From Actinoallomurus bryophytorum (GTDB taxonomy: Bacteria; Actinomycetota; Actinomycetes; Streptosporangiales; Streptosporangiaceae): a stretch of 64,000 nt of DNA. Below the pieces are notes generated by a model that was not told the DNA's origin, searched no databases, and saw only the letters and a program-made list of their open reading frames with translations. The stretch lies in NCBI RefSeq assembly GCF_006716425.1, contig NZ_VFOZ01000001.1, forward strand, positions 7,273,237 to 7,337,236, in the 5' to 3' direction. The position numbers and the translations under genes were made by a program. This document shows, piece after piece, positions 1-62,504 of this stretch; within the stretch, counting starts at the first letter, position 1, and each line of letters starts with the position of its first letter.

Positions 1-92
1 CGGGGGTCGGCCGGCGGTGCGAGTTCGACGTGGTGGCCGGCCAGGAATGAGAGCGACGTGTTCAGCGGTTCCCGGGTGAGTGTGTCGGACAT
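1..92 (-). CDS. 5' end of an unrecognised gene, cut by the window edge
   Basis: Reading leftwards from an ATG at 92, the first 30 codons are open and GC3-rich (begins MSDTLTREPLNTSL) and run off the window. A strong AGGAGG ribosome site lies at the right distance upstream of this ATG (plus-strand cctcct at about 101-106), which is the main support for the start. The start codon lies inside the last codons of the neighbouring gene at 62-430, so the two are probably translationally coupled. Too little of the protein is visible to name a family. Confidence 0.6.
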   Translation of the reverse strand, partial: MSDTLTREPLNTSLSFLAGHHVELAPPADP

Positions 93-430
93 GAGGGATC
101 CTCCTCGTTCCTCGCCGGCTGTTCCGGCGACGTCGACTGGGTGAGACCGAAGATTCCGGTCACCTCTCCGGAGAATGACCACACCAGGTTGGCCTCGTCG
201 TAGTGCCCGGCCGTGAAGGTGAGGTCCTGCTCGGGTTCGCCATCGGGTACCTGCTCGTACAGGTACGCCAGGGGGGAGTCGCGAGCCAGCCGCCGGCGTT
301 CGCGCAGATCGGCGGGGACCGCCCGGACGATGAGTGAGCCCTCGTGGAGCTCGGGCGGATCGAAGCGGAGGAAAGGCGGGGCGGCGGCGATGACGTTCGA
401 GCGGGCCTCGGCGCCCGGCGCTGCGATCAC
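62..430 (-). CDS. small hypothetical protein (122 aa)
   Basis: Open frame from a GTG at 430, with strongly GC-biased third positions over most of its length, so I take it as real coding rather than shadow. The middle (SLIVRAVPADLRERRRLARD, then SPLAYLYEQVPDGEPEQDL) looks like an ordinary soluble protein; there is no signal peptide or membrane segment. The last 10 residues overlap the start of the next gene. I do not recognise the family. It might be the C-terminal part of a longer protein whose start lies further upstream, but that stretch (431-522) shows no continuation. Confidence 0.5.
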   Translation of the reverse strand: MIAAPGAEARSNVIAAAPPFLRFDPPELHEGSLIVRAVPADLRERRRLARDSPLAYLYEQVPDGEPEQDLTFTAGHYDEANLVWSFSGEVTGIFGLTQSTSPEQPARNEEDPSCPTHSPGNR

Positions 431-522
431 GGCTGCATTGTCACCGACCCTCGCTCGCGGTTCGCTCTCAGTTCGCTCTCAACGGCTGCCGGGAACCGTG
501 GAGGGCTCGTTGTTCAGGGTGG

Positions 523-1173
523 TCAGTCCGGTCGAGAGGCGGGTCGGTTCCGCGGGGACGGCCGGTGTGTGGGCCAAGCCGTCAGGGCCAGCTCGGCGAC
601 CTGGATGAGTTCGGTCCTGCCGGCTCCGTCCCGGGCGCGTTGTGACATCCCTTGGATGACGGCGGCGAAGTATCCGGCCAGGGCATGGGGGTCGGTGTCG
701 CCGGGTAGTTCTCCTGCCTGTCGCGCGGCGGTGAGACGGTCCTGGAAGACCCTGAGGTTGGCGTTGCGCAGGTCGCGCAGGAACGCCTCGACGTCGGCGT
801 CCTGGACGGCGACGTTGGTGGCGGCGGAGATGGTCAGGCACCCGGCCGGGTGGGAGGGGTCGGGGTAGATCTCCGCGGCTTCGCGCAGGATGCGGGCGAA
901 CGCCGCGTAGGCGGTTGGTTCCTCCCCGAGGGCCGCACCCACGAAGGCGCCGGCGGGTGAGTGCCCGTAGGCGGCCACCACCTCCTTGAACAGCGACTGT
1001 TTGTCGCCGAAGGCGGCGTACAGGCTGGCCGGCCTGATGCCCATCGCCTGGGTGAGTTCACTGACCGAGGTGGCCTGGTAGCCGCGCTCCCAGAACAGCT
1101 GGGTGGCCGCCGCCAGCGCCGCGTCGCGGTCGAAGGTCCGGGGGCGTCCCCGTGTCCCGCCTGCTGTACTCAT
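523..1173 (-). CDS. TetR/AcrR-family transcriptional repressor
   Basis: 216-residue TetR-type regulator. Residues about 10-60 form the classical N-terminal helix-turn-helix (FDRDAALAAATQLFWERGYQ, then ATSVSELTQAMGI and SLYAAFGDKQSLF); the rest is the helical ligand-binding domain, with the HPAGCL motif common in the subfamily that sits beside SDR genes. It is divergent from the SDR gene at 1256, and the 82-bp gap carries a perfect palindrome plus an extra half-site, so it most likely represses both genes and responds to an SDR substrate or an electrophile. The effector is unknown. Confidence 0.93.
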   Translation of the reverse strand: MSTAGGTRGRPRTFDRDAALAAATQLFWERGYQATSVSELTQAMGIRPASLYAAFGDKQSLFKEVVAAYGHSPAGAFVGAALGEEPTAYAAFARILREAAEIYPDPSHPAGCLTISAATNVAVQDADVEAFLRDLRNANLRVFQDRLTAARQAGELPGDTDPHALAGYFAAVIQGMSQRARDGAGRTELIQVAELALTAWPTHRPSPRNRPASRPD

Positions 1174-1193
1174 CCCCCCATTGTAGAGCGCTC

Positions 1194-1241
1194 ACTCAAC
1201 AAAGCGTGTTAGCCTCTTTGTTGAGTCATCACTCAACAAAG
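1194..1241. promoter_or_regulatory. TetR operator: perfect palindrome plus extra half-site
   Basis: Perfect inverted repeat at 1216-1241: arms CTTTGTTGAGT and ACTCAACAAAG separated by CATC. A third copy of the right arm, ACTCAACAAAG, lies at 1194-1204, between the TetR start (1173) and the palindrome. The palindrome ends 14 bp before the SDR start codon, so a bound repressor would occlude SDR transcription initiation. Binding itself is inferred from position and symmetry. Confidence 0.8.
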
Positions 1242-1255
1242 AAAGAGGGCCACCC

Positions 1256-2029
1256 ATGGGTGCGCACGCGTTGGACGGCAGGGTCGCATTGGTCACCGGC
1301 GGCAGCAGGGGAATCGGCCGGGCCATCGCCCAGCGGCTGGGCCGTGACGGCGCCGTCGTGGCCGTCGCCTACGCCCGCGACCGGACAGCGGCCACCGAGG
1401 TCGTCGAGCGGATCGGCGAGAACGGCGGCCGGGCCTTCGCGATCCGGGCCGAACTGGGCGGCCACGGCGACGCGGCCGCGTTGTGGGCCGCCTTCGACGC
1501 CCTGGTCGGCACCCACGCCCCCGGCGACGGCGTCGACATCATCGTCAACAACGCCGGGATCGGCCGCAGCGCCGACCTGACCACGCTCACCGAGGAGGGG
1601 TTCGACGAGGTCTTCGCCGTGAACGTCCGTGCACCGTTCTTCATCGTCAAGGAAGGGCTGAAGCGGCTGCGCGACGGCGGACGGATCATCAACATCTCCA
1701 GCGGCGCGGCTCGCCTGGCCATGCCCGAGGCCATCGCCTACGGCGCCACCAAGGGTGCCCTGGACACCTTCACCCTCAACCTGGCCAAGCTCCTGGGGCC
1801 GCGCGGCATCACCGCCAACTCGGTGGCTCCCGGAATCGTCGACACCGACGTCAACGCCGGATGGCTGCGCGGAAACCCCGGCGCCCAGGCCCACGCCGCC
1901 TCCCTGGCCGCCCTCGGCCGCGTCGGACAACCCGCGGACATCGCCGACATCGTCGCCTTCCTCGCCTCCGACGATGCCCGGTGGGTCACCGGCAGAGTGA
2001 TCGACGCGACCGGCGGTGGCGGACTGTGA
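1256..2029 (+). CDS. SDR-family NAD(P)-dependent oxidoreductase
   Basis: 257-residue classical short-chain dehydrogenase. The Rossmann cofactor motif TGGSRGIG is at residues 14-21, NNAG is in the middle, and the catalytic Ser (NISSG) and YGATK pair follow, so the Ser-Tyr-Lys set is complete. The C-terminus has the usual late VTGRVIDATGG segment. The gene is controlled by the divergent TetR operator at 1216-1241. Substrate not predictable; such TetR/SDR pairs often handle small carbonyl compounds. Confidence 0.93.
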   Translation: MGAHALDGRVALVTGGSRGIGRAIAQRLGRDGAVVAVAYARDRTAATEVVERIGENGGRAFAIRAELGGHGDAAALWAAFDALVGTHAPGDGVDIIVNNAGIGRSADLTTLTEEGFDEVFAVNVRAPFFIVKEGLKRLRDGGRIINISSGAARLAMPEAIAYGATKGALDTFTLNLAKLLGPRGITANSVAPGIVDTDVNAGWLRGNPGAQAHAASLAALGRVGQPADIADIVAFLASDDARWVTGRVIDATGGGGL

Positions 2030-2076
2030 GCTCAGCGCCCCGGCGCGCGGTGGCGGCGTGCCGTCGGCGGTGATGT

Positions 2077-4503
2077 TCAGGAAGCCGCCCTGCGCGCCGC
2101 GGCGCGCCCTACCCGGCGCAGGTGCCGGACGTCGTCCTCCCGGCCCAGTCGCGCGTAACAGCCGGCTGCCGAGCGGGCCAGCGCGACCGTGAGGTCGTCG
2201 AACGCCGCCCCGAGAGCCCACGCCTGGTCGACGACGGCTCGTACGGCGTCCGCCTCGGCCTCGAACCAGGCCGGCCGCAGCGTCGCGTGGCCGGCCCCGT
2301 CCCGTACGGGCGGCGCGACGTCCTCCGGGTCCGCGGATCGCCTCACCCCGCACAGCCAGGCCCCGAAGGCCCGTCGCAACGCCGCTTCGCGGGCCGGGCT
2401 CGCGTCCTCGGCGTACGCGCGTTCCCGCGCGTGCAGCCGCGTGAGCACCGGCAGGCCGTAACGCGGCTGCCCGGCCACGTCCTCACCGAGCAGGTTCGCC
2501 ACCTTCGCGTCGACGAGCGCCTCCAGGAGCGTCGTCGCGGCGTCCGGCGAGACGCCCAGCAGGGAGCCGGCCGCCCAGGCCGCGAGGTCGGGGACGGCCA
2601 GCAGACCGAGTAACCGGACCGTTCGCCGCTCGCCGGGCGCGAGGTCCCGGTAGCCCGAGTCCAGGCTCGGCCGGACGGCGAGCCCGTGGAGGCCGAGGAC
2701 GTCCAGCCGGCGGTCCTCGTCACGCAGGCGGGTGGCGAGTCTGCCGGCGGTCAGCCGTGGCCTGGTCGCGAGGCACACCCCGGCGACACGCACGGCCAGC
2801 GGCAGGCCGCCGCACAGGCGCGTGATCTCCGGTGCCTCGGGGTCAACGGCCATGTCCTCACGGCCCGACACCGCGCCGAGCAACCGGACCGCGTCGTCCT
2901 GGGCGAGCGCGCCGAGCGCCAGCACGCGCGCTCCGGCCAGCCCGGGGAGATCGCGCCGGGTGGTGACCAGCACCGCGCAGCCGGTGGTCCCGGGCACCAG
3001 CGGCCGGACCTGGCTCTCGTCGCGGGCGTCGTCGAGCACGACGAGGATCCGGCGGCCCGCCGTACGCGACCGGTAGAGGGCCGCGCGGTCCTCGAACGAG
3101 GCCGGGATCGCCTGGTCGTGGACGCCGAGGGCACGCAGGAAACGGCCGAGGACGTCCGCCGGGTCGGCCGGCCGGCAACCGGGTCCGCGCAGGTTCGCGT
3201 GTAACTGCCCGTCGTCGAAGAGGGGAGCGACGCGGTGCGCGGTGTGCACGGCGAACGCGCTCTTGCCGATCCCCGCCGGTCCGTTGATCACGAAGACGCA
3301 GGGGCCGTACGGATTGCCGCCCGACAGGAGCGGGCCGCCGATCGCCGCGAACTCCTCCCTGCGGCCGGTGAAGTCCGGGATGTCCGACGGCAGCTGCCTC
3401 GGGACGGAGCAGAACCGGTCGTCGCCCCGCAGCGCCGCCACGTGGGCGTTCCTGACCTCGCCGGACGGGCCGATCCCGAGGTCGTCGGCGAGCCGTTGCC
3501 GTACCTGCTCGACATGGAGCAGGGCCTCGGCGTGCCGGCCGGACCTCGACAGCAGCCGTACGAGCCGTGCGTGCAGAGGCTCGTCGTACGGGGCGGCGGC
3601 GGCCACCGCGCCCACGGCCGGGACGAACTCGGCCGGGCGGCCCAGCTGTGACGCGAGCTCGGCCAGCGCCCCGGCGGCGTCGACTCGGGCCTGTTCCACC
3701 GCCCGCACGATGGGGTCGGCGGTCAGCCATTCGGGACGGCCGCCGAGCACCGGCCCGCGCCATTCGCCGAGAGCCGCGGACAGCAGGGCCAGCCGTCGCT
3801 CCGGGTCGCAGGTCGTGGCGCTCGCCTTCACGCGGTCGCGGAACCGGGCGATGTCGACGGCGTCGTCGGGCATCGCCAGCCGGTATCCCGACCCGGTGAA
3901 CTCCAGGCCGCATGCCGCGCCCGCGACGTCACGAAGCCACGTACGCAGCCGGTGCACCGTGCACTGCAGGGCACGGCGGCTGCCCTTGCCCTCGCCCCAG
4001 GCCAGCTCGAGCAGCCGCGTCTCGCCCACGACATCGCCCGGGGCGAGTGCGAGCGCGCCCAGCAGCGCGCGCATGCGCGCTCCTCCGGGAACGGACAGGT
4101 CCCGGCCGTCGACGCGGACCGCGAGCTCGCCCAGGATGAACAGTTCGACGTGGGGGACTCTGCCGCCTAGCGCCGGGGCGTCCGGGCTCGCGGTGGACGG
4201 CGGATCGTCGTCGACGACGATGCGGCCGCCCGCCTCGTACTGCCGGGAGAGGACCGTTGACGGGATCTGTACGGCGGAGGCGGTGTCCGGCCAGGTCATG
4301 CCCTGGTCCTCGTGACACGTGGCGACGGCCTGGCGGAGTGCCCACCCGGACAGCCGTTGCACCTGGGCGAGGTGCCGCGCCTGGCCGGCCGGATGACCCG
4401 CACCGCGCGCCTTGCCGAGCTCCTCGGTGAGCCGCTCCAGATAGCGCTCCAGGCCGCCGGAGCCGCGACCGTCGGCCGCGAGACCGCCGTCCTGGTCGCC
4501 CAC
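2077..4503 (-). CDS. AfsR/SARP-type regulator with NB-ARC domain and N-terminal extension
   Basis: 808-residue multidomain regulator starting at a GTG with a GGGAGG ribosome site upstream. Order: residues 1-115, an extension with a helical HTH-like stretch (MTWPDTASAVQIPSTVL); 118-210, OmpR-like winged helix of SARP regulators; 218-360, BTAD all-helical domain; from 373, an NB-ARC/STAND ATPase with Walker A GPAGIGKS (408-415), Walker B region RILVVLDDA and the GGLPLAV motif; the C-terminal part resembles the winged-helix/TPR region of AfsR-like proteins but is short. It is divergent from the jetABC operon across a 166-bp gap. It may control that operon or an unseen secondary-metabolism target; the sequence does not decide. 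Confidence 0.92.
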   Translation of the reverse strand: MGDQDGGLAADGRGSGGLERYLERLTEELGKARGAGHPAGQARHLAQVQRLSGWALRQAVATCHEDQGMTWPDTASAVQIPSTVLSRQYEAGGRIVVDDDPPSTASPDAPALGGRVPHVELFILGELAVRVDGRDLSVPGGARMRALLGALALAPGDVVGETRLLELAWGEGKGSRRALQCTVHRLRTWLRDVAGAACGLEFTGSGYRLAMPDDAVDIARFRDRVKASATTCDPERRLALLSAALGEWRGPVLGGRPEWLTADPIVRAVEQARVDAAGALAELASQLGRPAEFVPAVGAVAAAAPYDEPLHARLVRLLSRSGRHAEALLHVEQVRQRLADDLGIGPSGEVRNAHVAALRGDDRFCSVPRQLPSDIPDFTGRREEFAAIGGPLLSGGNPYGPCVFVINGPAGIGKSAFAVHTAHRVAPLFDDGQLHANLRGPGCRPADPADVLGRFLRALGVHDQAIPASFEDRAALYRSRTAGRRILVVLDDARDESQVRPLVPGTTGCAVLVTTRRDLPGLAGARVLALGALAQDDAVRLLGAVSGREDMAVDPEAPEITRLCGGLPLAVRVAGVCLATRPRLTAGRLATRLRDEDRRLDVLGLHGLAVRPSLDSGYRDLAPGERRTVRLLGLLAVPDLAAWAAGSLLGVSPDAATTLLEALVDAKVANLLGEDVAGQPRYGLPVLTRLHARERAYAEDASPAREAALRRAFGAWLCGVRRSADPEDVAPPVRDGAGHATLRPAWFEAEADAVRAVVDQAWALGAAFDDLTVALARSAAGCYARLGREDDVRHLRRVGRAAARRAAS

Positions 4504-47070: not shown

Positions 47071-47298
47071 GACTGGTCCCTCCAGTTTTGGGGGTCTTCG
47101 TCGGAGCCCGGGGCGGTGGCAGGCCCCCGCCCGCGGGTGCCTTGGCCTGTTAAATTCTACGCTTCGCTAACTAGGCCGTTAATGTCTGCGGGCAGGGCGA
47201 TCCAGGGCTTATGGACAACGAGTCGCGATTGTCCGGCGTCCTAGGGGAGAGCGAAACTTTTCGTACGGCCACGGCCTGCGAGCGAGCGATGAGGTGTG
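47071..47298. promoter_or_regulatory. divergent promoter region
   Basis: 228 bp between fdhA and the LCP gene with an AT-rich patch at 47148-47184. Both promoters must be here. No palindrome worth calling an operator. Confidence 0.35.
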
Positions 47299-49326
<2,028 letters not shown>

Positions 49327-49385: not shown

Positions 49386-49464
49386 TGTTATCCACAGAAC
49401 CCCGCTCTACTTCCGCCCGCGGCTGTTCTGGCTGGACAATGAGAGTGGGATGGCACCCCCGGGC

Positions 49465-49710
49465 GGGTGGGCTCCAGGTGGGTGGGCTCCAGGTGGGTGG
49501 GCTCCAGGTGGGTGGGCTCCAGGTGGGTGGGCTCCAGGTGGGTGGGCTCCAGGTGGGTGGGCTCCAGACGGGTGGGCTCCAGACGGGTGGGCTCCAGACG
49601 GGTGGGCTCCAGACGGGTGGGCTCCAGACGGGTGGGCTCCAGACGGGGCGGGGCCCAGACGGGGCGGGGCCCAGACGGGGCGGGGCCCAGACGGGGCGGG
49701 GCCCAGACCG
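49465..49710. repeat. adjacent 15-bp and 16-bp tandem repeat arrays
   Basis: From 49471 there are about 12 copies of GCTCCAGGTGGGTGG, whose CAGGTG changes to CAGACG half-way (from 49561). From about 49641 the motif becomes a 16-bp unit (GGCCCAGACGGGGCGG, four copies). One array has evidently grown out of the other by stepwise change. No gene is supported in 49327-49790. Confidence 0.93.
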
Positions 49711-49790
49711 AGGGCTTCGAGGCAGGCCGTAGCCGATGCCAACGCCCGCCGAGGCTCACGAGGAGACCTCGGCGGGAACCCGGCACAAGC

Positions 49791-50660
49791 TCACCCGCCA
49801 GGCGACGGCCGGCCGGCGAGTACCGCCTCGTTGGGCCGGGGTCCGGCGCGCACTCCCGCCCACAGCCCACGGAAAAGCTCTCGCAAGAGGCGCGCCCGGT
49901 CGGAGGAGCCCGCGAGGCTCCGGGCCCAGCGCCGCAGCGTCGACCCCGCGTACAGCAGCCGCTCGCCCGGAGCCAGGCAGCGGCTGCGGGTGAACAGCCA
50001 GGTCTTGTTCCGCACCTCGTAGAAGAACCGCGCGCCGGGGTCGAACACCGGCGACGCGGTCCGGTGCACGACGACGCTCGAAGGGCACAGCAGTCCGAGG
50101 CGCCCGCGCAGCAACCGCAGTGTGTACTCGAAGTCGTCGTTCCACAGGAAGTAGTCGGCGATCGGCAGCCCGCACTCCCGTACGGCGCCCGCGTCCAGCA
50201 GCACGGACACGAAGGACGCGGACCGGATCCGGCCGGGGGCCCCGGAGCGGAGGGCCCGCGGAGTGTTCATCGGATGGTCGCCGCCGTCGGTCCAGACGAC
50301 CCGGCTGGCGGCGAGCGCGGGACGGTGACGGCCGAAGGTGGCCAGCAGCTCCGCCAGAGCGGACGGCGAGGGGAGCGTGTCGTCGTCCATCAGCCAGAGC
50401 GCCGTCGCGCCGAGGTCCAGGGCACGGGCGATCCCGGTCGCGAAGCCGCCGGCGCCACCGGTGTTGTGCGGCAGTGCGAGGAGTTCGATCTCGGGAAAGC
50501 GCGACCGAACGAGCCGAGCCGTGCCGTCCGACGAGGCGTTGTCCACGACGACCGTCGCGTCCGGCGTACGGGCCTGAGTGCGGAGGGCTGTCAGTGCCTC
50601 GGTCAGAAGATCTCGCCGGTCGTGGGTGACAACCACAGCCACGACATAAGCGTCTTCCAA
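49791..50660 (-). CDS. family 2 glycosyltransferase, GlfT1-like
   Basis: 289 residues from a TTG at 50660, chosen for AGGAG seven bases upstream (an ATG at 50687 gives nine more residues without a ribosome site). GT2 fold: YVVAVVVTHDRRDLLTEALT, VVVDNASSDGTARLV, PHNTGGAGGFATGIARALDL, metal-binding LWLMDDDTLP, catalytic region FLWNDDFEYTLRLL. The NTGGAGGF and WNDDFEY motifs are those of GlfT1 (Rv3782) and rhamnosyltransferase-like enzymes that start galactan on the lipid linker. Divergent from the galactan operon. Confidence 0.87.
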   Translation of the reverse strand: MEDAYVVAVVVTHDRRDLLTEALTALRTQARTPDATVVVDNASSDGTARLVRSRFPEIELLALPHNTGGAGGFATGIARALDLGATALWLMDDDTLPSPSALAELLATFGRHRPALAASRVVWTDGGDHPMNTPRALRSGAPGRIRSASFVSVLLDAGAVRECGLPIADYFLWNDDFEYTLRLLRGRLGLLCPSSVVVHRTASPVFDPGARFFYEVRNKTWLFTRSRCLAPGERLLYAGSTLRRWARSLAGSSDRARLLRELFRGLWAGVRAGPRPNEAVLAGRPSPGG

Positions 50661-50794
50661 CTGACATCTCCTGACATCCCACACCATTGCTGGTTAATGG
50701 GTTGAAACCGCTCGAAAGCGAAGGCGCAAAACTAGCATAAGATGCAATCCGCCCAGCTGGCCCCATCAGTCTTTCGCCCCACCGAGATGGACGC

Positions 50795-54693
<3,899 letters not shown>

Positions 54694-54697
<4 letters not shown>

Positions 54698-55605
54698 CCG
54701 GAGGGCCTGCCACGGTCCAGCCGCTGCTCGCGCCGGGCCGGGGCGGCGGGCTGCACGACGTCGCCCGGCGGAGGTACCTGCTGCGGCTGCTCGTACGCCG
54801 GGAGCTGCGCAGCCGCTATCAGGGATCGCTGCTCGGCCTCGGCTGGTCCTACGTGCGCCCCGCGGTCAACTTCGCGGTCTACTTCTTCGTGGTCGGCATC
54901 TTCCTCAAGATGAGCAAGGCGATCCCGAACTTCCCGGTGTTCCTGTTCTCCGGCATGGTGCTGATCAGCTTCTTCACCGAGACGCTGATCACCACGGCCT
55001 GGTCGATCGTCGGCAACGCCCCGCTCGTGAAGAAGGTCTACCTGCCGCGCGAGCTGTTCCCCGTCTCCTCGATGCTGGTCTCCGGCGTGCACATGCTGCC
55101 GGCGCTCGCCGTGCTCATGGGCGGCGCGGTGTGGGCCGGGTGGGCGCCGTCGTGGATCGCGGTCGGCTCGATCCTGCTGGCGTTCGGCATCGTGGCGGCA
55201 CTGGCGATGGCGTTCGGCCTGCTGTTCGGCGCGGTCAACGTGTTCTTCCGCGACTTCGGGCAGGTCGTGGACATCATCAACATCGTCGTCCCGTGGTCGG
55301 TCCCGATGATCTATCCGTGGACCACGGTGCAGGAGGCCACGCACGGCGGCTGGCTCCTCCAGGCGTACCTCGCCAACCCGCTGACCAGCGCGGTGCTGCT
55401 GTTCGAGCGGGCCTTCTGGTGGCCGACCAACGACCAGGCGCTCACGCTGCCGAACGGCGCGCCCGCCCTGCCCGGCGGGCGGCTCGCCTTCCCGTACCAC
55501 CTCACCACGCGCGGCCTGACCGGCCTGCTCGCCGCGCTGGTGCTGCTGGCCGTGGCCCAGCTGGTCTTCGCCCGGCTGCAGCGACGCTTCGCCCAGGAGC
55601 TTTGA
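54694..55605 (+). CDS. wzm: ABC-2 type polysaccharide export permease (Wzm)
   Basis: 303 residues, six membrane helices, with the Wzm/TagG-family start RRRYLLRLLVRRELRSRYQG, SLLGLGWSYVRPAVNFAVYF, and NAPLVKKVYLPRELFPVSSM. In mycobacteria the homologue Rv3783 with ATPase Rv3781 exports the lipid-linked galactan. Its stop codon overlaps the start of the ATPase fusion gene (TGATG). Confidence 0.94.
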
Positions 55606-58214
55606 TGGAGTCCATTGTCGTCGACGGGGCCTCCAAGCACTTCACCCTGCGGCATGCGCACTCCATCAAGGAGATGACCGTACGCGCGGCGCGGCGGCAG
55701 AGCCTGTCCGAGCGCTTCACCGCGCTGGACGAGGTCTCGCTCGCCGTCGAGCAGGGGGAGTCGCTGGCCCTCATGGGTCTCAACGGCTCGGGCAAGAGCA
55801 CCCTGCTGAAGCTCATCTCCGGCGTCATGCAGCCCGACCGGGGCTCGGTGGGCGTACGCGGCCGTGTGGCCGGGCTGATCGAGGTCGGCGCGGGCCTGCA
55901 CCCCGACCTGACCGGCCACGAGAACATCTTCCTCAACGCCGCGATCCTCGGCATGAGCAAGGCCGAGACCGAGGCCAGGTACGACGAGATCGTCGCCTTC
56001 TCCGAGATCGAGTCCTTCCTCGACACCCAGGTGAAGTTCTACTCCTCCGGCATGTTCATGCGGCTCGGCTTCGCGGTGGCCGTGCACACCGACCCCGAGG
56101 TCTTCCTCGTGGACGAGGTGCTCGCCGTCGGCGACCCGCCGTTCCAGAAGAAGTGCCTCGAACGCATCCAGGAGTTCCACGCCGAGGGGCGCACGCTCGT
56201 CATCGTCTCCCACGACATGGGCACGCTGGAGCAGGTCTGCGGCCGCGGCGTCGTGCTGGAACAGGGGCGCCTCGCGTACGAGGGCGGCATCCAGGGCGCG
56301 GTCGACTTCCTCACCCCGCCGGACACGCCGCTGGAGGCGGAACGGCGCAAGCGGGCCCGCTCGGAGGCCGACCCGGAGAACACCGCGCGTGCCGAGGCCG
56401 AGCTGCTGGCCCGCGAGGTCATGCCGGACGCGACGCGGTTGCCCGACCCGCTCGCCACGCTGGAGCACGGCCTGTCGCTCGCCGCCGGGCAGGACGGCAT
56501 GGCGCTGGAGTTCGGCGTGCACACCGGCGGCACGCTGAAGGTCATCGCCGCGGCGCGTGAGGGCAAGAACGTCTTCGGCTTCGACTCGTTCGAGGGACTG
56601 CCGGAGGACTGGCGCGAGGGGTTCCCCGCCGGGCACTTCGCGGTGGACGAGCCGCCGGAGGTGCCCGGCGCGGAGCTGGTCGTCGGGCGCTTCGAGGACA
56701 CGCTCGCGGACTTCCTGGAGGAGCATCCGGATCCGGTGGCGTTCGTGCACGTCGACGCCGACCTCTACTCCTCGGCACGTACCGTGCTCGGCCTCGTCGG
56801 TCCCCGGCTGGCCGTCGGCACGGTCATCGTTTTCGACGAGTACTTCGGCTATCCGGGCTGGCGGGAGCATGAGTACCGGGCCTGGCAGGAGTACGTGGCC
56901 GAGTCCGGCGTGCGCTTCGACTACAAGGGCTACACGACCGGCAACGAGCAGGTCGTCGTGCGGATCACCGGCGTGACGAACGGTGACCGCCGGACCGTGC
57001 CGATCGCCGCCATGCCGTTCGCCGTGACGACCCTCGCGGGACGCGCACCGGTGGCGGACGCAGCGCCGGCGGAGCCCGCGGAGCCCGTCACCGGAGACCC
57101 CGAGCCGGTGGCGAAGGGTTCGGTCCGCAAGGCCGGCGGGCGGCTGCGGGAGCTGGACGTCCTGCGCTTCGTCGCCGCCGCGGTCGTGATGCTGCACCAC
57201 TACACCGGCGTCCCGGCGCCGGAGTGGCCGGGCGGCAGCGCCCGCCGGGTCTTCCCCGCGCTCGGCTCGGTCACGCGCTACGGCTTCCTCGGCGTCGAGC
57301 TGTTCTTCCTGATCAGCGGGTTCGTCATCCTGCTGAGCGCGTGGGGCCGCAAGCCGGGCGACTTCGTCGTCTCGCGCATCGTGCGGCTGTTCCCCGCGTA
57401 CTGGGTCGGTGTGCTGCTCTCGCTCGGCGCGTACCTGGCGTTCAACTCCTGGGTGCCCTTCGGCCCGAACACCGACGGCCCGCTCGAACGGTTCCTGCCG
57501 AACCTGACGATGCTCCAGGAGGGTGTCGGCTCACAGCGCATGGAGGTCATCTACTGGACCCTCTATGTCGAGCTGCACTTCTACGTGCTCATCGCATTGT
57601 TCGCGTGGACGCGCATCACCTACGCCCGATGCGTCGCGTTCATGGGCGCGTGGCTGTTCTTCAGCGTCTTCGCCCTCGAATCGAACTCCGCCTTTCTCAA
57701 GGTCGTGCTGCTCTGGCGGTACGCGCCGTTCTTCGTCGCCGGTATGGGCTTCTACCTCATCTACAAGTACGGCTCGAACCTTCTCGTCTGGCTGCTCATC
57801 GGGGCGGGCTGGGCGCTCGGCTGCTACTACGACGTCAAGTACAACTTCCCGGACTTCACGGCCGCGCCGCACTCCCTCTACATCATCCCGGCCGTGGTCA
57901 CGGTGATCTTCGGGATCATGGCGCTGGTCGCGACCCATCGGCTGGCATGGCTCCGCTGGCGCGGCTTCACCGTGCTGGGCATGCTGACGTACCCGCTGTA
58001 CCTGGTGCACCAGACGATCTCCCGCACGTTCGTGCCGCGGCTGGTCCCCCACATGGGCCGCTGGGCCGTGCTCGGCGTCCTCATCGCGAGCGCGCTGCTC
58101 GCCGCCTCCCTCATCCACCTGCTGGTCGAACGCCCGGCCCAGCGCCACCTGCGGCCCAAGCTCAAGGCGGCGCTGGACCGGATCCGCGCCGGGGGTCCCG
58201 CGACCGGCTCCTAA
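55605..58214 (+). CDS. three-domain fusion: ABC export ATPase (Wzt) - TylF-like methyltransferase - acyltransferase 3
   Basis: 869 residues in one uninterrupted frame from the ATG at 55605. Domain 1 (1-240): Wzt-type ATPase, Walker A GLNGSGKS (58-65), signature FYSSGM (145-150), Walker B VFLVDEVLAVGD (166-177), H-loop His203. Domain 2 (about 270-460): TylF/macrocin-O-methyltransferase-like, LEFGVHTGGT, FDSFEGLPEDW, VHVDADLYSS, DEYFGYPGW. Alanine/proline linker (about 470-505). Domain 3 (about 514-860): acyltransferase 3 (OafA/YrhL) with ten or so helices, LRFVAAAVVMLHHYTG catalytic His, GVELFFLISGFVILLS, RIVRLFPAYW. Domains 1 and 2 face the cytosol. The fusion implies that methylation and acylation of the galactan are tied to its export. 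I know Wzt proteins with C-terminal sugar-binding domains, but not with these two enzymes. Confidence 0.93.
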   Translation: MESIVVDGASKHFTLRHAHSIKEMTVRAARRQSLSERFTALDEVSLAVEQGESLALMGLNGSGKSTLLKLISGVMQPDRGSVGVRGRVAGLIEVGAGLHPDLTGHENIFLNAAILGMSKAETEARYDEIVAFSEIESFLDTQVKFYSSGMFMRLGFAVAVHTDPEVFLVDEVLAVGDPPFQKKCLERIQEFHAEGRTLVIVSHDMGTLEQVCGRGVVLEQGRLAYEGGIQGAVDFLTPPDTPLEAERRKRARSEADPENTARAEAELLAREVMPDATRLPDPLATLEHGLSLAAGQDGMALEFGVHTGGTLKVIAAAREGKNVFGFDSFEGLPEDWREGFPAGHFAVDEPPEVPGAELVVGRFEDTLADFLEEHPDPVAFVHVDADLYSSARTVLGLVGPRLAVGTVIVFDEYFGYPGWREHEYRAWQEYVAESGVRFDYKGYTTGNEQVVVRITGVTNGDRRTVPIAAMPFAVTTLAGRAPVADAAPAEPAEPVTGDPEPVAKGSVRKAGGRLRELDVLRFVAAAVVMLHHYTGVPAPEWPGGSARRVFPALGSVTRYGFLGVELFFLISGFVILLSAWGRKPGDFVVSRIVRLFPAYWVGVLLSLGAYLAFNSWVPFGPNTDGPLERFLPNLTMLQEGVGSQRMEVIYWTLYVELHFYVLIALFAWTRITYARCVAFMGAWLFFSVFALESNSAFLKVVLLWRYAPFFVAGMGFYLIYKYGSNLLVWLLIGAGWALGCYYDVKYNFPDFTAAPHSLYIIPAVVTVIFGIMALVATHRLAWLRWRGFTVLGMLTYPLYLVHQTISRTFVPRLVPHMGRWAVLGVLIASALLAASLIHLLVERPAQRHLRPKLKAALDRIRAGGPATGS

Positions 58215-59332
58215 CGTGCCGGCGCCAGGCCGATCGTGTCGATCTCCGCGCTGCACGTGGCGTGGGTCAGCCGTACGGTGTCGCGTCCGGCGTTCAGGTC
58301 GACGTCGGCCGCCGTGATCGTCCAGCGGTCCCATCCGTACGCGGGGTAGCGCAGCTCTCCGCCCGGCCGCCCGTTGACGGTGAGCCGTTGCTCGCACGTG
58401 CCGTCCGAGCCGTTGCCGGCCCGTACGTACAGGCGGTAACGCCCGGCGCGCGGCAGCTGCAGCGCGAACTCCAGGAAGCTGCCGGCGGCGGACAGGTAGC
58501 CGACCTTCCCGTTCCCCGAGGCGTTCGGGGTCGTCAGGCGTTCGCCGTTGTTGACCGTCGCGTACGTCGGCGACTCCGCCTCCCAGCGCGTCATCGGCCG
58601 GCCGGTCAGCGCGGAGTACCACGTCGTGGCCATCTTGGCGTAGCCGCCGCTGGTGGGATGGATGCCGTCGCCGGACAGGTCGTCCTTGGAGAGCGCGGAA
58701 TGCATGTCGACCAGGTGGACGTGGCGGCCGGCGGCCGCCTTGGCGGCGACGAGCCCCGTGATGGCCGCGTTGTAGGCGCGTGCCCGTGCGTCGCGGGCCT
58801 TGCCCGCCAGCGGGGTGATCGTCGCGACGTACACCTGCGCGGCCGGCACGGTCGCCGTGATGGAGTCGAGCAGCGCGTTCAGCCGTGCCGGGGCCGTCGG
58901 CAGGCCCCACCGCTGGACCACGTCGTTCGTGCCGATCTGCAGCAGGACGATGCCGGGCCGGTACTCCAGCAGCCAGTCGCGGGCGTGCTGGGACAGCTGC
59001 CGGATGCGCCAGCCCGGATGACCCTCCTCGTCGCGGTCGTCCAGCTGCGACGGTCCGCCCGACCGTGAGCCGACGAAGTCGGGTTTCATCCCGTCGGCCC
59101 TCATGTACTGCCACAGGTCGCTGCGGTAACCGCCCGATGACTGCAGGCCGTCGGTGATCGAGTCACCGAGCGGCATGACGCGTACCGGCGCCGACACGGG
59201 CGCGTCCCTGTGCGGCGCCATCACCAGTGCGCGGTGCGGGGCGCCGCCGGCCTGCAGGCGCATGCCGGCACAGGCCGCGAGGCTGACGAACAGCACCACC
59301 GCGGCGATGATGATCCGGTCCAGGCGCGTCAC
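58211..59332 (-). CDS. secreted SGNH/GDSL hydrolase with C-terminal carbohydrate-binding-like domain
   Basis: 373 residues. N-terminal signal or anchor helix (IIIAAVVLFVSLAACAG). SGNH motifs: block I VMPLGDSITDGLQSSGGYR (Ser), block III LLQIGTNDVVQRWG, block V SGDGIHPTSGGYAKMA (Asp and His). From about 255, a beta-sandwich CBM6/35-like domain (WEAESPTYATVNNGERLTTP, RLYVRAGNGSDGTCEQRLTV). Probably an extracellular esterase. Its stop overlaps the end of the acyltransferase fusion gene head to head, so it may remove acyl groups from the same polymer. Confidence 0.9.
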   Translation of the reverse strand: MTRLDRIIIAAVVLFVSLAACAGMRLQAGGAPHRALVMAPHRDAPVSAPVRVMPLGDSITDGLQSSGGYRSDLWQYMRADGMKPDFVGSRSGGPSQLDDRDEEGHPGWRIRQLSQHARDWLLEYRPGIVLLQIGTNDVVQRWGLPTAPARLNALLDSITATVPAAQVYVATITPLAGKARDARARAYNAAITGLVAAKAAAGRHVHLVDMHSALSKDDLSGDGIHPTSGGYAKMATTWYSALTGRPMTRWEAESPTYATVNNGERLTTPNASGNGKVGYLSAAGSFLEFALQLPRAGRYRLYVRAGNGSDGTCEQRLTVNGRPGGELRYPAYGWDRWTITAADVDLNAGRDTVRLTHATCSAEIDTIGLAPAR

Positions 59333-59423: not shown

Positions 59424-62315
59424 TCACGGCAATGGCCGCCGCCACAAGGTCGGCTGTTCGCCGTGGTGGTCCGCGGTGATCCCGACGGCCAGCAGATCGG
59501 AGCCGAGCACGGTCAGCCCCGTGAGCCACTGGTCACCCCGGCCGGAAAGGCCCGTGCCCTGAGGCGACTGCGCGGCCCAGGAGTGCCCGTCCGCCGACGT
59601 CCACAGCACCACGTCCTCGCGGCCCGGCCGTCCCGCGGCGCCCGCGATGACAAAACCCTTTGGGGTGGCGGTCACGGCGGTGACGAAGGAGTTGTGGTCA
59701 CTGGAGTCCGCGCCGTCCTGGCCCGCCCTGGGCAGCCTGACCTCCTGCCACGACGTGCCCCCGTCCGATGAGGCGAACGCGAACGCGGCGCGCCCGGAGG
59801 AGGTCGTCGCCGTGCCGGTCGCGACGAGCAGGCCGCCCTTGATCGCCACCTTGTCGAACCATCCCTCGAGCGAGCCGGCCGGTTGCGGCAGCTGCTTCAG
59901 CGTCCACTTGTGCCCGTCGGCGGAGGTCCAGACGGCGGGCCTGCCCTGGGGGGCGTCCTTGACCGCCGGGTCGCTGAGGCCGCCGACGGCGACGAAGCCG
60001 GACGGCCCGGCCACGACGCTGCGCATCCAGCGGTTGGCCGTCGCCTTGCCCGCGAGGTCGCCGCCGTTGCCGGCCTTCCACGACTTCAGGTCGGAGGAGA
60101 ACCAGGTGCCCGCGGAGTAACCGGACTCGCCCACGATCACGTAGCCCCCCGCGCCGGCCGTCGCGGCGTACGTGGCCACGTGACCCTCTGGGCCCGCGTC
60201 GAACCCGTCGGCCGCATGCCAGCTCGTGCCGTCCGACGAGGTCACGACGAGAGGCCGCGCGGCGTCGTATCCCACGGCGAGCCAGCCCGCGGCGCCCGGG
60301 GTCACGCCGATGAGCCGCTGCTTGCCGGGCCGTGCCAGTGCCTCGCCCGTGCCGCTCGCGCGGGCCCAGCGGGTGCCGTCGGATGAGGTCCAGACGGCGC
60401 CGTCGCCGTTGGTACCGCCCACCGCGACCCGCAGGTTCGGCCCGGTGGCCACGGACGTCACGGTCTGGTCGGGCTGCGCGGCGCCCGGGATGGCGGACAC
60501 GTCGACCGGGATCTCCTGGCCGAGCGTGTCGCGTACCGCGAGCACGCCGTCGGTGTCCTGGCCGTCGTCCTCGCGCCCGGCGACGATGGTCGCGCCGGCC
60601 GTCACCGCGACGCCTTCGACCGTACGGCCGGACGAGGTCGCCACCTCGCCGCCGTTCTGCCAGGCACGGCCGTCCTCGCTGCGGGCGAGCAGGACCTTCT
60701 TGTCGCCGCCGATCACGGCGACGAGGCCGCGGTCGGATCCGGTGAGGCGCTGCAGGCCTCCGTAGCCGGGCAGGTGGATCTCTCCGGCGGGCTGCCACCG
60801 GCTGCCGTCCGCCGACGCCATCACCACGCCGTAGTGCTCGGACTTGCTGCTCGCGTTGCGGCCGGCGACGAACCCGCCGGCCGTCGCGCCGATGGCGATG
60901 CCCGGCCCGGCGGTGCCCTTGGGGTGCGGGATGTCGACCGCGGCCCAGGACCGCCCGCCGTCGGCCGAACGCCACACCCCGTCCCTGATGATCTGGCCCT
61001 TGGCGTCGGTGGCCCAGCCGTAGGTGATGACGGTGTTCCCGCGCGTGGCGACGTCGATCAGCGACAGCGGTCCGCCGGACAGCGACATCTTGAGCTGGTC
61101 GTTGCCCAGGCGTTGCCACTGCCTGCCGTCGGATGACAACCATACCACCGGTACGGCGTCGCTGTAGTCGCCCTTCTGCGAAGTGCTCCCGACGGCGACG
61201 AAGCCGCCGCTCGTACGGGCCACCCGGGTGATCTTGTCGCGGCCGAAGACCGCACCCGTCGAGTCGGGCTGCCGGGTCCAGGTCCTGCCGTCGCGGCTCG
61301 TCCAGACCGCGGTGCCGGTACGCGAACCGCCGAGGGCGACCCAGGCGCCGTCCGAGCCGCCCACCACACGAGGCGTGTCGCCGTATCCGGGCTCGGCGCC
61401 ATCGGGCGTGCGCACGTCGGCGAGGCGGAAGGAACGCCCGCCGTCGGTGGAGACCAGGAACTCCCCGCGGTAGTCGGCGGTGTCGGCCTCTCCGCCGACC
61501 GCGACCACGATCGAGCCGGAGGACGCCACGCCGAGAAGCTCCTGGTCGCGGCCGTCGGACTTGGCCGCCGGGTCCGCTGTGAACGTGGCCGCCGCGAGCT
61601 TCGCGGCGGGCCCGGTGGAGGTGTGCGGGGTGCCGCGTCCGGACAGCACCACGACGGCGGCGGCGGCGATCACGGCGGCGACGGCCAGGCCCGCCACCGT
61701 GATCAGGATCGGCCGCAGGCGCCGCCGGCCGCCGGCGCGCTGGGCCGTCTCCCGGCGCCACGGCTCGTCATAGACCCCCGGCGGTCCGCCGTAGGGGAGC
61801 TGCCCGGGCATCGGCGGGCGGGATTCGGGTGCGCGGGGTTCGGGCGGGCGCGGCGTGGAGCGCGGGCTGGTGGCCGAGGGCGGCAGGTCGAAGGTGGTGG
61901 CGTGCGGGTCGACCGTGGTGGCGTTCGGGTCGCCGCCCGCCGGGGGTCCCGGGTTCGGCTCGCTCCGCGGGACGGGCAGGTGGTACGCCGGCCAGCCGGA
62001 GGGTAGTGGTGCGTCCGTCACGGTGGGTTCGGACGGCGGCGCCTCGTTCGCCGGGTCCCAGAGCGGCTGGGGCGGGATCCGCCAGGGATCGGAGGCCGGC
62101 GGGGTCTCGAACCGCGGCTTGCCGCCGGGGTCGACCGTGGGCCCCTCGTCGTCGTACGGGCGCTCCCCGTACGGGGGAGGCGGGGCCCACGGCGGGACGG
62201 CGGCCGGTGGTGTGCCCGGGTGCCGGCCGCCGGGAGGCGGGGGAGGTATCGCCCAGGGGTCTTCGGGAGGCGGATCCGCGTCAGGTTCGTCGTCAGGCAT
62301 GTCGTGCCGAGTCAC
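59424..62315 (-). CDS. single-pass membrane protein with about 12 Asp-box (BNR) repeats
   Basis: 963 residues from the GTG at 62315 (GGAGG six bases upstream). Residues 1-195 are cytosolic, proline- and acid-rich; then a basic stop (RRRLRP) and one membrane helix (ILITVAGLAVAAVIAAAAVV). The extracellular 700 residues hold a dozen Asp-box turns of the form SxDGxxW (for example STDGGRSF, SRDGRTW, SADGHKW), spaced about 50 residues apart, as in sialidase-like beta-propellers. I see no sialidase Arg triad or FRIP motif, so it is probably a binding or scaffold propeller rather than an enzyme. Possible link: surface polysaccharide recognition. Confidence 0.85.
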   Translation of the reverse strand: MTRHDMPDDEPDADPPPEDPWAIPPPPPGGRHPGTPPAAVPPWAPPPPYGERPYDDEGPTVDPGGKPRFETPPASDPWRIPPQPLWDPANEAPPSEPTVTDAPLPSGWPAYHLPVPRSEPNPGPPAGGDPNATTVDPHATTFDLPPSATSPRSTPRPPEPRAPESRPPMPGQLPYGGPPGVYDEPWRRETAQRAGGRRRLRPILITVAGLAVAAVIAAAAVVVLSGRGTPHTSTGPAAKLAAATFTADPAAKSDGRDQELLGVASSGSIVVAVGGEADTADYRGEFLVSTDGGRSFRLADVRTPDGAEPGYGDTPRVVGGSDGAWVALGGSRTGTAVWTSRDGRTWTRQPDSTGAVFGRDKITRVARTSGGFVAVGSTSQKGDYSDAVPVVWLSSDGRQWQRLGNDQLKMSLSGGPLSLIDVATRGNTVITYGWATDAKGQIIRDGVWRSADGGRSWAAVDIPHPKGTAGPGIAIGATAGGFVAGRNASSKSEHYGVVMASADGSRWQPAGEIHLPGYGGLQRLTGSDRGLVAVIGGDKKVLLARSEDGRAWQNGGEVATSSGRTVEGVAVTAGATIVAGREDDGQDTDGVLAVRDTLGQEIPVDVSAIPGAAQPDQTVTSVATGPNLRVAVGGTNGDGAVWTSSDGTRWARASGTGEALARPGKQRLIGVTPGAAGWLAVGYDAARPLVVTSSDGTSWHAADGFDAGPEGHVATYAATAGAGGYVIVGESGYSAGTWFSSDLKSWKAGNGGDLAGKATANRWMRSVVAGPSGFVAVGGLSDPAVKDAPQGRPAVWTSADGHKWTLKQLPQPAGSLEGWFDKVAIKGGLLVATGTATTSSGRAAFAFASSDGGTSWQEVRLPRAGQDGADSSDHNSFVTAVTATPKGFVIAGAAGRPGREDVVLWTSADGHSWAAQSPQGTGLSGRGDQWLTGLTVLGSDLLAVGITADHHGEQPTLWRRPLP

Positions 62316-62504
62316 GCTCACCCTCCCCGTCTATCGCCGTGAATGGCGACCCCCCGCGACGCGACCTTCCACAATACGATCGTGGCGGCATCTTATCCGG
62401 ACAAAGCGGGCAAGCGCCTCGTTCACCGTGTGGTGTGACCTATCCGCAAACTTTTCTCCGCCCGAAAAGTGTTCTGTGGCATTCGCCGGGCCGCATTACG
62501 GTCG

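Follow-up and report, generated by a model that had tools for sequence, protein, structure and literature searches.

A Wzt-type exporter ATPase fused to a methyltransferase and an acyltransferase 3 domain at the end of a galactofuranan operon in Actinoallomurus

Can the ATPase of a glycan exporter carry on its own polypeptide two enzymes that modify the exported glycan, and is such a joint of consequence for export? A gene of the soil actinomycete Actinoallomurus bryophytorum raises this question. It lies in a stretch of 64,000 nucleotides (the window), and the initial annotation inferred that capping methylation, acylation and export of a galactofuranan are performed by its single product. 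The features of the locus are listed below, with the evidence in brackets.

47296..49326 (+), LytR-CpsA-Psr (LCP) glycopolymer ligase, with a repetitive N-terminus and an uncertain true start (Pfam, locus comparison)
49791..50687 (-), second GT2 glycosyltransferase, on the opposite strand (codon phase, locus comparison)
50795..51655 (+), GT2 glycosyltransferase (Pfam, locus comparison)
51645..52796 (+), UDP-galactopyranose mutase Glf (Pfam; TIGR00031 above cut-off)
52793..54697 (+), GlfT2-like polymerising galactofuranosyltransferase (Pfam GlfT2_domain3 and Glft2_N)
54694..55605 (+), Wzm, the ABC-2 permease partner, whose stop codon shares bases with the fusion gene's ATG (Pfam, locus comparison)
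55605..58214 (+), three-domain protein of 869 aa: Wzt ATPase, TylF-like O-methyltransferase (MTase), acyltransferase 3 (AT3) (translation, Pfam, alignments of relatives)
55605..56324 (+), Wzt-type nucleotide-binding domain, aa 1-240 (Pfam, motifs, structure-chain search)
56370..56990 (+), TylF-like SAM-dependent sugar O-methyltransferase domain, aa 256-462 (Pfam, alignment, profile matches to CalS11, SpnH, MycF and NovP)
56991..57128 (+), linker, aa 463-508, the region of MTase stop and AT3 start in relatives (nucleotide alignment)
57012..57014 (+), in-frame ATG, M470 (MPF...), near the apparent AT3 start (MPS...) in A. purpureus and A. soli
57138..58178 (+), AT3 membrane domain, aa 512-858 (Pfam, alignment motifs)
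58211..59332 (-), SGNH/GDSL hydrolase, a convergent neighbour (Pfam, locus comparison)

The 869 residues, amounting to about 95 kDa, are encoded in one frame with a single terminal stop. Length alone is weak proof of a gene here, because high G+C gives long random runs: in 40 random 64-kb sequences with the gene's own composition, the longest open run averages 541 codons and reaches a maximum of 792. Third-position G+C is 0.83-1.00 in all 29 thirty-codon blocks of the gene, and the third position is the phase of highest G+C in each of the eight 300-base steps between 55800 and 57900. Block 481-510, in the linker, is the sole block where first-position G+C equals the third-position value (0.87). 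Coding constraint is evident in all three domains, as substitutions peak at third positions in comparison with each of five relatives (33 of 48, 28 of 53 and 62 of 103 across the domains in comparison with locus L048).

L048 belongs to a second assembly, that of 'Actinomadura sp. DC4' (G006), and has the same three-domain frame, with 879 codons and 88% identity. The three-part gene is found in these two genomes only, which might point to an assembly or frameshift artefact. However, the two assemblies agree, and the linkers differ in length yet both are open, with two internal length differences of 21 and 6 nt, each a multiple of three. The codon-phase G+C also runs on through the linker. An artefact is therefore so improbable as to be negligible, and a stop or frameshift between domains, the concern raised at the outset, is absent from the second assembly. 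Since close relatives encode AT3 as a separate protein, the fusion appears to be both real and recent.

The ATG start codon overlaps the wzm stop (TGATG) and is preceded by AGGAG. Homologues align with the fusion protein from the same Met, encoded by GTG in G003, and the start is credible. The ABC_tran family matches residues 41-172 with 72.2 bits, above the curated cut-off. GLNGSGKST (58-66), FYSSGM (145-150), VFLVDE (166-171) and H203 are the Walker A, signature, Walker B and H-loop motifs. The closest solved chain is 6amx, entitled 'ABC transporter' (E 3.7e-59), presumably the Wzt of A. aeolicus.

The central part matches Methyltransf_24 (aa 301-413, 40.3 bits against a cut-off of 26.3) and TylF (aa 358-434, 31.4 bits against 23), and all six MTase members of the genus match both families. 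E302, G304, D327, D384, D386 and E412, which are presumably SAM and acidic metal-site residues, are unchanged in 12 of 12 aligned homologues. A profile search against solved structures finds CalS11 (1.9e-15), SpnH (5i10, 5.2e-13; 4cdz, 5.7e-13), MycF (6.8e-9) and NovP (1.8e-8). By its sequence, this domain is a member of the TylF-like sugar O-methyltransferase family. Two AlphaFold models have mean pLDDT values of 45.4 and 47.7. In the first, the MTase part (261-460) reaches a pLDDT of at least 57 in 16 of its 20 ten-residue blocks, whereas the ATPase and AT3 parts are too poor to be used. The top Foldseek matches of the whole first model are O-methyltransferases, and CalS11, SpnH, MycF and NovP lead this search as well. 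These fold matches give weak support, since the rmsd is 4.7 to 14 Å in the first 15 rows.

Acyl_transf_3 (PF01757) matches residues 516-836 with 72.0 bits against a cut-off of 31. R521-X10-H532 and R591xxR594 are unchanged in 20 of 20 aligned homologues, and correspond to the R-X10-H and RXXR motifs defined for AT3 proteins (PMC9833829, in part). Hydropathy analysis reveals segments that do not resolve into ten transmembrane helices, and comparison of the AT3 part with solved structures by sequence gives no match at E<=1. Among the Pfam matches of the fusion protein there is neither Wzt_C (PF14524) nor a kinase family. The single frame with three domains in the proposed order is thus upheld by Pfam, motifs, codon phase and the second assembly.

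The galactofuranan setting that had been proposed is also borne out by the nearby Glf, GlfT2-like, Wzm and LCP ligase genes. The fusion gene is the end of a Glf-GlfT2-Wzm-Wzt galactofuranan operon in Actinoallomurus. A Wzm match is found in all 56 loci compared (here ABC2_membrane, 27.3 bits against a cut-off of 26.9), and in 54 of them the genes run Glf, GlfT2, Wzm, Wzt. It should be pointed out that the ATPase has 160.8 bits against a cut-off of 400 for the galactan-export RfbE equivalog NF050108, and is therefore described as Wzt-type in a GlfT2 operon; Wzm has 19.4 bits against 380 for the galactan permease equivalog. Consensus scanning detects no sigma-70-like promoter at 50600-58400 and, in the linker, nothing resembling a terminator; Rfam has no match in the window. 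The SGNH protein has a hydrophobic, lipobox-like N-terminus and a CBM35-like domain below the model cut-off. An open reading frame at 49467-50705 (+) was discarded, since it merely shadows the GT2 gene on the minus strand.

How widespread is the fusion? Among eight Actinoallomurus genomes, two have the full three-part gene and four, A. iriomotensis included, have a two-domain Wzt-MTase gene with a separate AT3 gene; one (G007) has Wzt alone and one has no match. Wzt and MTase are thus in one gene in six of eight genomes, i.e. in all six that have the MTase. G007 keeps the export operon without the MTase, AT3 or SGNH neighbour, and for this reason neither modification appears to be needed for export in general. 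Of 297 genomes of the family, six have a strong MTase match, and all six belong to this genus. Searches of samples from the family, the class and the phylum found no Wzt-MTase fusion outside it, and none is described in the portions of the literature covered. Of six MTase loci examined outside the genus, two (L047 and L080) are beside a GlfT2-like gene, and the other four have no such neighbour in the stretch examined. A narrow pattern scan of genome contigs matched 131 stretches and confirmed five relatives; it is weak on absence. A 64-row alignment was set aside, as lone MTases were misaligned (20-23% identity).

Long Wzt frames also occur elsewhere. Twenty places with open frames of at least 680 codons were chosen by eye from the phylum listing, leaving out at least three others that long (in G374, G436 and G450). 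A motif search finds a Wzt-like frame in 18 of the 20; for L155 and L169, the frames holding the ABC match were listed instead. In 17 of the 18, the extra length precedes the ATPase, as 326-353 residues follow Walker A; in L173, 679 residues follow it. Pfam scanning of eight of the 20 detects Wzt_C in five and a methyltransferase in none. Of the two joints, the one between Wzt and MTase is the more lasting novelty; the MTase stands at the place which, in some Wzts, is taken by a domain for reading capped chain ends.

Of the 56 loci, 14 have AT3 downstream of Wzt or Wzt-MTase. An SGNH neighbour is present at nine of these 14, versus none of the 42 loci without AT3 (coverage at least 45%); at five of the 14, AT3 is a tandem pair and the SGNH protein is absent from the examined stretch. 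Gene order and the tree (support 0.996 for the fused pair, 0.992 for the MTase-bearing clade) suggest that the ancestral arrangement was a Wzt gene with AT3 behind it, that the MTase was then joined to the Wzt C-terminus within the genus, and that the stop preceding AT3 was lost last. Instead of a gain within the genus, the MTase may have been lost in G007.

In all 12 other AT3 loci, those with tandem AT3 included, a stop precedes AT3, so that a single polypeptide is unnecessary for the chemistry. Small open reading frames are present in two spacers. In G001 and G005 the AT3 start even overlaps the MTase stop. This raises the question of whether each of the three domains works on the wall glycan by itself, the joint being a neutral by-product of stop-codon loss between neighbouring operon genes, and the presence of the three-way joint in only two of eight genus genomes might be read in the same way. 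Yet the joint was kept through divergence to 88% identity with in-frame linker changes, and that between Wzt and MTase is found wherever the genus has the MTase. A fusion without coupling is a reasonable but doubtful explanation. The proposal of one polypeptide for methylation, acylation and export is partly supported: the three-part fusion is real, but it is not the unit that the genus conserves.

Alternatively, separate proteins might arise, either at translation or by later cleavage of the polypeptide. Initiation at M470, close to where two relatives appear to start AT3, could free this domain, as could proteolysis of the linker, which is Pro/Ala-rich in both fused genomes. There is no clear Shine-Dalgarno sequence before M470, and the stop is lost in both fused genomes, which argue against separate products; they are highly improbable.

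The interpretation that we favour, by a narrow balance, is that of a Wzm/Wzt galactofuranan exporter whose ATPase acquired the MTase and AT3 stepwise, with the chain methylated and then acylated. Glf would produce UDP-Galf, and chain extension by GlfT2 would take place in the cytoplasm. Positioned where the transporter opens to the cytosol, the MTase would methylate a galactose hydroxyl of the chain before or during export, most likely at or near the growing end, where the methyl group may be a cap and might serve in chain-length control. Wzm and a Wzt dimer would export the lipid-linked galactofuranan. If Wzm and the fusion protein form a 2:2 complex, two copies of each enzyme would flank the channel. 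The AT3 domain would take an acyl group from acyl-CoA and pass it through the membrane; outside, this group would be placed on the galactan, whether or not the secreted SGNH protein encoded next door takes part, and the LCP ligase would link the chain to peptidoglycan. Loss of a stop codon in one lineage would have led to the three-part protein, perhaps with tethering as the benefit. Such a topology can work, because AT3 proteins are reported to have cytoplasmic N-termini (PMC9833829, in part). The suggested modification during membrane passage is thereby divided: methylation is predicted in the cytosol, before or at export, and acylation on the opposite side. The open-access literature matches listed contain no chemical data on Actinoallomurus wall glycan.

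Perhaps the coupling is closer. In a cap-and-export machine, the exporter ATPase would itself hold the terminating MTase, so that end methylation, the stop of GlfT2 and the start of export become one event without an end-reading domain; the fused lineage would also supply the acyl group across the membrane. This stronger version is tentative. On the other hand, the MTase might act on many residues inside the chain or on branches, or on a different acceptor, for instance a lipid-linked primer, and have no part in chain length or export. Sugar methylation by TylF-type enzymes takes place in several settings, a cap is unreadable from sequence, and the operon lacks the MTase in 50 of 56 loci. Mycobacterial galactan is exported by Wzm-Wzt, with size control through GlfT2-exporter contacts proposed and still under study (PMC10951656, in part). 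However, the MTase has the place on the exporter that Wzt_C has in other Wzts (five of eight scanned), which suits a chain-end role, and a non-capping MTase is rather unlikely.

Madurose, which is 3-O-methyl-galactose and widespread in the order, is an attractive product, because the nearest enzymes include 3-O-methyltransferases. As the general source of madurose, the MTase was rejected, given that its strong matches are confined to the one genus; as a product in Actinoallomurus, madurose is a possibility. Thermomonospora curvata is without madurose (PMC3072092, in part). The open-access literature matches listed contain nothing on Actinoallomurus sugars.

If correct, the favoured interpretation gives a hint of the way in which galactan is capped and exported. 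A sugar MTase built into an exporter ATPase is a direct genetic handle on the coupling of chain length and export, because domain deletions should alter cap, length and export separately. The natural series of Wzt, Wzt with AT3, Wzt-MTase with AT3, and three-way fusion is a ready control set.

The initial annotation knew of no described protein with this domain order, and none was met in the portions of the open-access literature covered. The mycobacterial galactan pathway shares UDP-Galf, a GlfT2-type polymerase and a Wzm/Wzt exporter; the portion of PMC10951656 covered makes no mention of an MTase or AT3 on Wzt. RfbE structures are among the closest solved chains to the ATPase of the fusion. 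Mycobacterial galactan is arabinosylated, whereas a search of the A. bryophytorum genome for the Emb-type arabinosyltransferase family PF04602 finds nothing (a C. glutamicum control was positive). The Wzt of K. pneumoniae O4 likewise has an extra C-terminal module on the ATPase, Wzt_C, which reads the chain end (PMC11231755, in part); here an MTase is in this position. WbdD, WsaE and K. pneumoniae O7 ORF6 are MTases joined to kinase and/or glycosyltransferase parts (PMC11231755, PMC2943079, both in part). There, methyl or methyl-phosphate ends are tied to the stop of elongation, and the capped chains are predicted or shown to be exported (the same two papers and the WbdD abstract). In those systems the MTase is on other pathway enzymes, whereas here it is on the exporter ATPase. 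CalS11, SpnH, MycF and NovP, the best solved relatives of the MTase by profile and fold, act by their entry names on nucleotide-sugar or natural-product sugars, unlike the exported wall glycan proposed here. The acyltransferases OafB, OatA and Oac, of the AT3-only and AT3-SGNH types, share the two AT3 motifs. The bacterial AT3 fusions named in the AT3 literature covered have an SGNH or an alanine-racemase domain after AT3, with unspecified others in Eukarya, and that literature makes no mention of an ABC exporter that carries a membrane acyltransferase (PMC9833829, in part). In Actinoallomurus, in contrast, AT3 is itself C-terminal to an ATPase-MTase, and the SGNH protein is a separate neighbour.

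The fusion gene (window 55605–58214, plus strand) consists of a single frame of 869 codons and a stop, and a Pfam scan finds three domains in its product, all above cut-offs:

aa 41–172, ABC ATPase domain
aa 301–434, Methyltransf_24/TylF methyltransferase (MTase) domain
aa 516–836, Acyl_transf_3 (AT3) domain

The initial annotation had claimed an uninterrupted frame carrying ATPase, MTase and AT3 in this order, and both points are borne out. The length of 869 codons by itself is weak coding evidence at such G+C; among 40 random 64-kb sequences composed like the gene, the longest open run had a mean of 541 codons and a maximum of 792. Third-position G+C is at least 0.83 in all 29 thirty-codon blocks and is equalled by another position solely in the linker block 481–510. 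Substitutions relative to each of five relatives affect third positions most in all three domains, and the frame is therefore coding along its whole length. The frame opens with an ATG overlapping (TGATG) the stop of the ABC permease gene wzm, with AGGAG upstream, and the alignment with relatives begins at the same residue.

The genome is 9.47 Mb in three contigs. The relatives named here are Actinoallomurus species and 'Actinomadura sp. DC4', which is classed within the same genus. The operon order is GT2, Glf (UDP-galactopyranose mutase), a GlfT2-like galactofuranosyltransferase, Wzm and the fusion gene. Upstream lie an LCP ligase gene and, on the opposite strand, a GT2 gene, and downstream lies a convergent gene:

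58211–59332, minus strand, SGNH protein with a CBM35-like domain, homologues at loci L048–L056 except L053 (G007)

The Emb arabinosyltransferase family PF04602 has no match in this genome at E<=0.01, with a positive Corynebacterium glutamicum control; thus, from gene content, the wall galactan is expected to lack arabinan of the mycobacterial type. Several other features of the region can be mentioned. A lipobox-like LAAC is present in the SGNH protein of the window and in three relatives. The product of the minus-strand gene at 59424–62321 (965 aa) matches a BNR propeller weakly and, judged by its sequence, probably has a single membrane anchor; such proteins are encoded close to the galactan cluster at many of 56 loci, in variable orientation. 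A 15-bp tandem array (49464–49695, 15.3 copies, 96% matches) separates the LCP and minus-strand GT2 genes. The N-terminal part of the LCP frame (47404–47966) is repetitive, with several nested repeat periods, and its start is uncertain.

The solved chains nearest to the ATPase are 6amx, 6m96 and 8dku, which we take to be A. aeolicus Wzt, followed by TarH/TagH and RfbE. Against the galactan-RfbE equivalog it scores 160.8 bits and does not reach the cut-off of 400; it is therefore filed as a Wzt-type ATPase in a GlfT2 operon. By its profile the MTase resembles sugar O-methyltransferases (CalS11 1.9e-15, SpnH 5.2e-13, MycF 6.8e-9, NovP 1.8e-8), and Foldseek ranks CalS11, MycF and SpnH at the top for a low-confidence model. 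Acidic and glycine residues that are presumably typical of the fold do not vary among the 12 homologues aligned. The AT3 motifs R-X10-H and RXXR are kept in 20 of 20 homologues, and the parts of PMC9833829 consulted describe them as essential in AT3 proteins. The same parts place the termini of Oac in the cytoplasm, and a cytosolic ATPase-MTase ahead of AT3 would thus be topologically sound.

Within the genus, eight genomes (own included) were compared. The three-way fusion is found in two, the present genome and 'Actinomadura sp. DC4'. Four (G001, A. purpureus, A. soli and G005) encode a two-domain Wzt-MTase of 462–464 codons with AT3 as a gene of its own behind it, and the Wzt-MTase joint is thus present in all six genus genomes having the MTase. 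One genome (G007) has Wzt alone, with neither MTase nor AT3 matched genome-wide at the cut-offs used and no SGNH neighbour, and another (G004) has no match to the query. In G001 and G005 the MTase stop is overlapped by the AT3 start. In A. purpureus and A. soli a spacer separates the MTase from the apparent start of AT3 and contains a small ORF (40 and 20 codons, respectively), and AT3 shares the MTase reading frame in A. purpureus.

Gene order was compared, at 45% coverage or more, in stretches of 10.7 to 20.6 kb from 56 loci, i.e. all 48 matching family genomes and eight of 42 other class genomes. The order Glf, GlfT2, Wzm, Wzt is present in 54; L148 and L154 have no GlfT2 match. The MTase is found in six loci, and in 14 an AT3 gene lies behind Wzt or Wzt-MTase. 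Five of these 14, all family genomes (L118, L119, L133, L137, L146), have a tandem AT3 pair directly downstream of Wzt, cut off from it by a stop, and lack an SGNH neighbour within the stretch fetched. An SGNH neighbour is present in nine loci, all AT3-bearing (9/14). It is absent from all 42 loci lacking AT3, two of which, L059 and L064, weakly match just its carbohydrate-binding part. All eight non-genus AT3 loci have a stop that closes the Wzt frame before AT3, 251–280 codons from the match start; the first AT3 shares the Wzt frame in L054, L055 and L118.

Beyond the genus, the searches cover samples of one phylum as well as plasmids. The 456-aa Wzt-MTase part finds 48 of 297 genomes of the family at E<=1e-85, and both domains are spanned by six genus members only. 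In the class 44 of 296 match at 1e-70, and only the present genome spans both. In the phylum 167 of 246 match at 1e-50; among the matches listed, those to the ATPase end by query residue 306, the present genome excepted. At 1e-25 the MTase profile matches nine of the 297 family genomes, of which six are genus members at 2.4e-120 or below; at 1e-40 it matches 6 of 396 phylum genomes, including the present one. None of the 5000 best plasmid records reaches 80% coverage of the fusion protein, and coverage is at most 41% among the 20 places listed. Two of six non-genus MTase loci (L047, L079–L083) adjoin a GlfT2-like gene; the other four have none adjacent within the fetched stretch. In these two, L047 (a Rhodococcus plasmid) and L080 (a genome of the same class), a lone MTase is 58% identical, and L080 also has a Wzt-like ATPase (38%) nearby. 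One further locus, L173, contains a 1082-aa frame (35–3283) with a Wzt-like ATPase, 679 residues from Walker A on, where Pfam matched ATPase families only.

In a tree of Glf, GlfT2, Wzm and ATPase from 14 loci the two fused genomes cluster (support 0.996) within an MTase-bearing clade (0.992), and G007 branches outside that clade; the deeper branching is less secure, with one node at 0.442. The most economical reading starts with Wzt followed by AT3 as a separate gene. Within the genus the C-terminus of Wzt would then have acquired the MTase, after G007 split off, or earlier with loss in G007, and the stop before AT3 would finally have been lost in one lineage. The linkers of both fused genomes have an ATG and MPF near the apparent AT3 start (MPS) of A. 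purpureus and A. soli. Linker gaps between the two are 21 and 6 nt by nucleotide alignment and 7, 5 and 3 residues by protein alignment, always whole codons, as expected of a translated linker. Addition of AT3 appears to be recent and lineage-specific, the joining of two operon neighbours.

Within the reach of these searches, the fusion is a real and new domain architecture, carried by an exporter of a known type; no such protein is described in the portions consulted of the open-access papers PMC11231755, PMC2943079, PMC9558356, PMC9833829, PMC3769361 and PMC10951656. Methylation should take place in the cytosol, since SAM is found there and the MTase has no signal sequence ahead of it. Acylation would occur outside the cytoplasm, where AT3 proteins, in the literature portions consulted, present acyl groups, and the protein would therefore serve both membrane sides around a single export step. 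The MTase is dispensable for export in general, because 50 of the 56 loci have none at this place. The Wzt-MTase joint is the part most worthwhile to follow. In other systems, according to portions of PMC11231755 and PMC2943079, a cap halts elongation and is recognised by a Wzt domain, a recognition that PMC2943079 gives as a prediction only. That domain, Wzt_C (PF14524), has no match in the fusion protein and is present in five of eight other Wzts scanned. It lies at the C-terminus of such Wzts, whereas here the MTase holds that place, which makes a chain-capping role for the MTase attractive by analogy.
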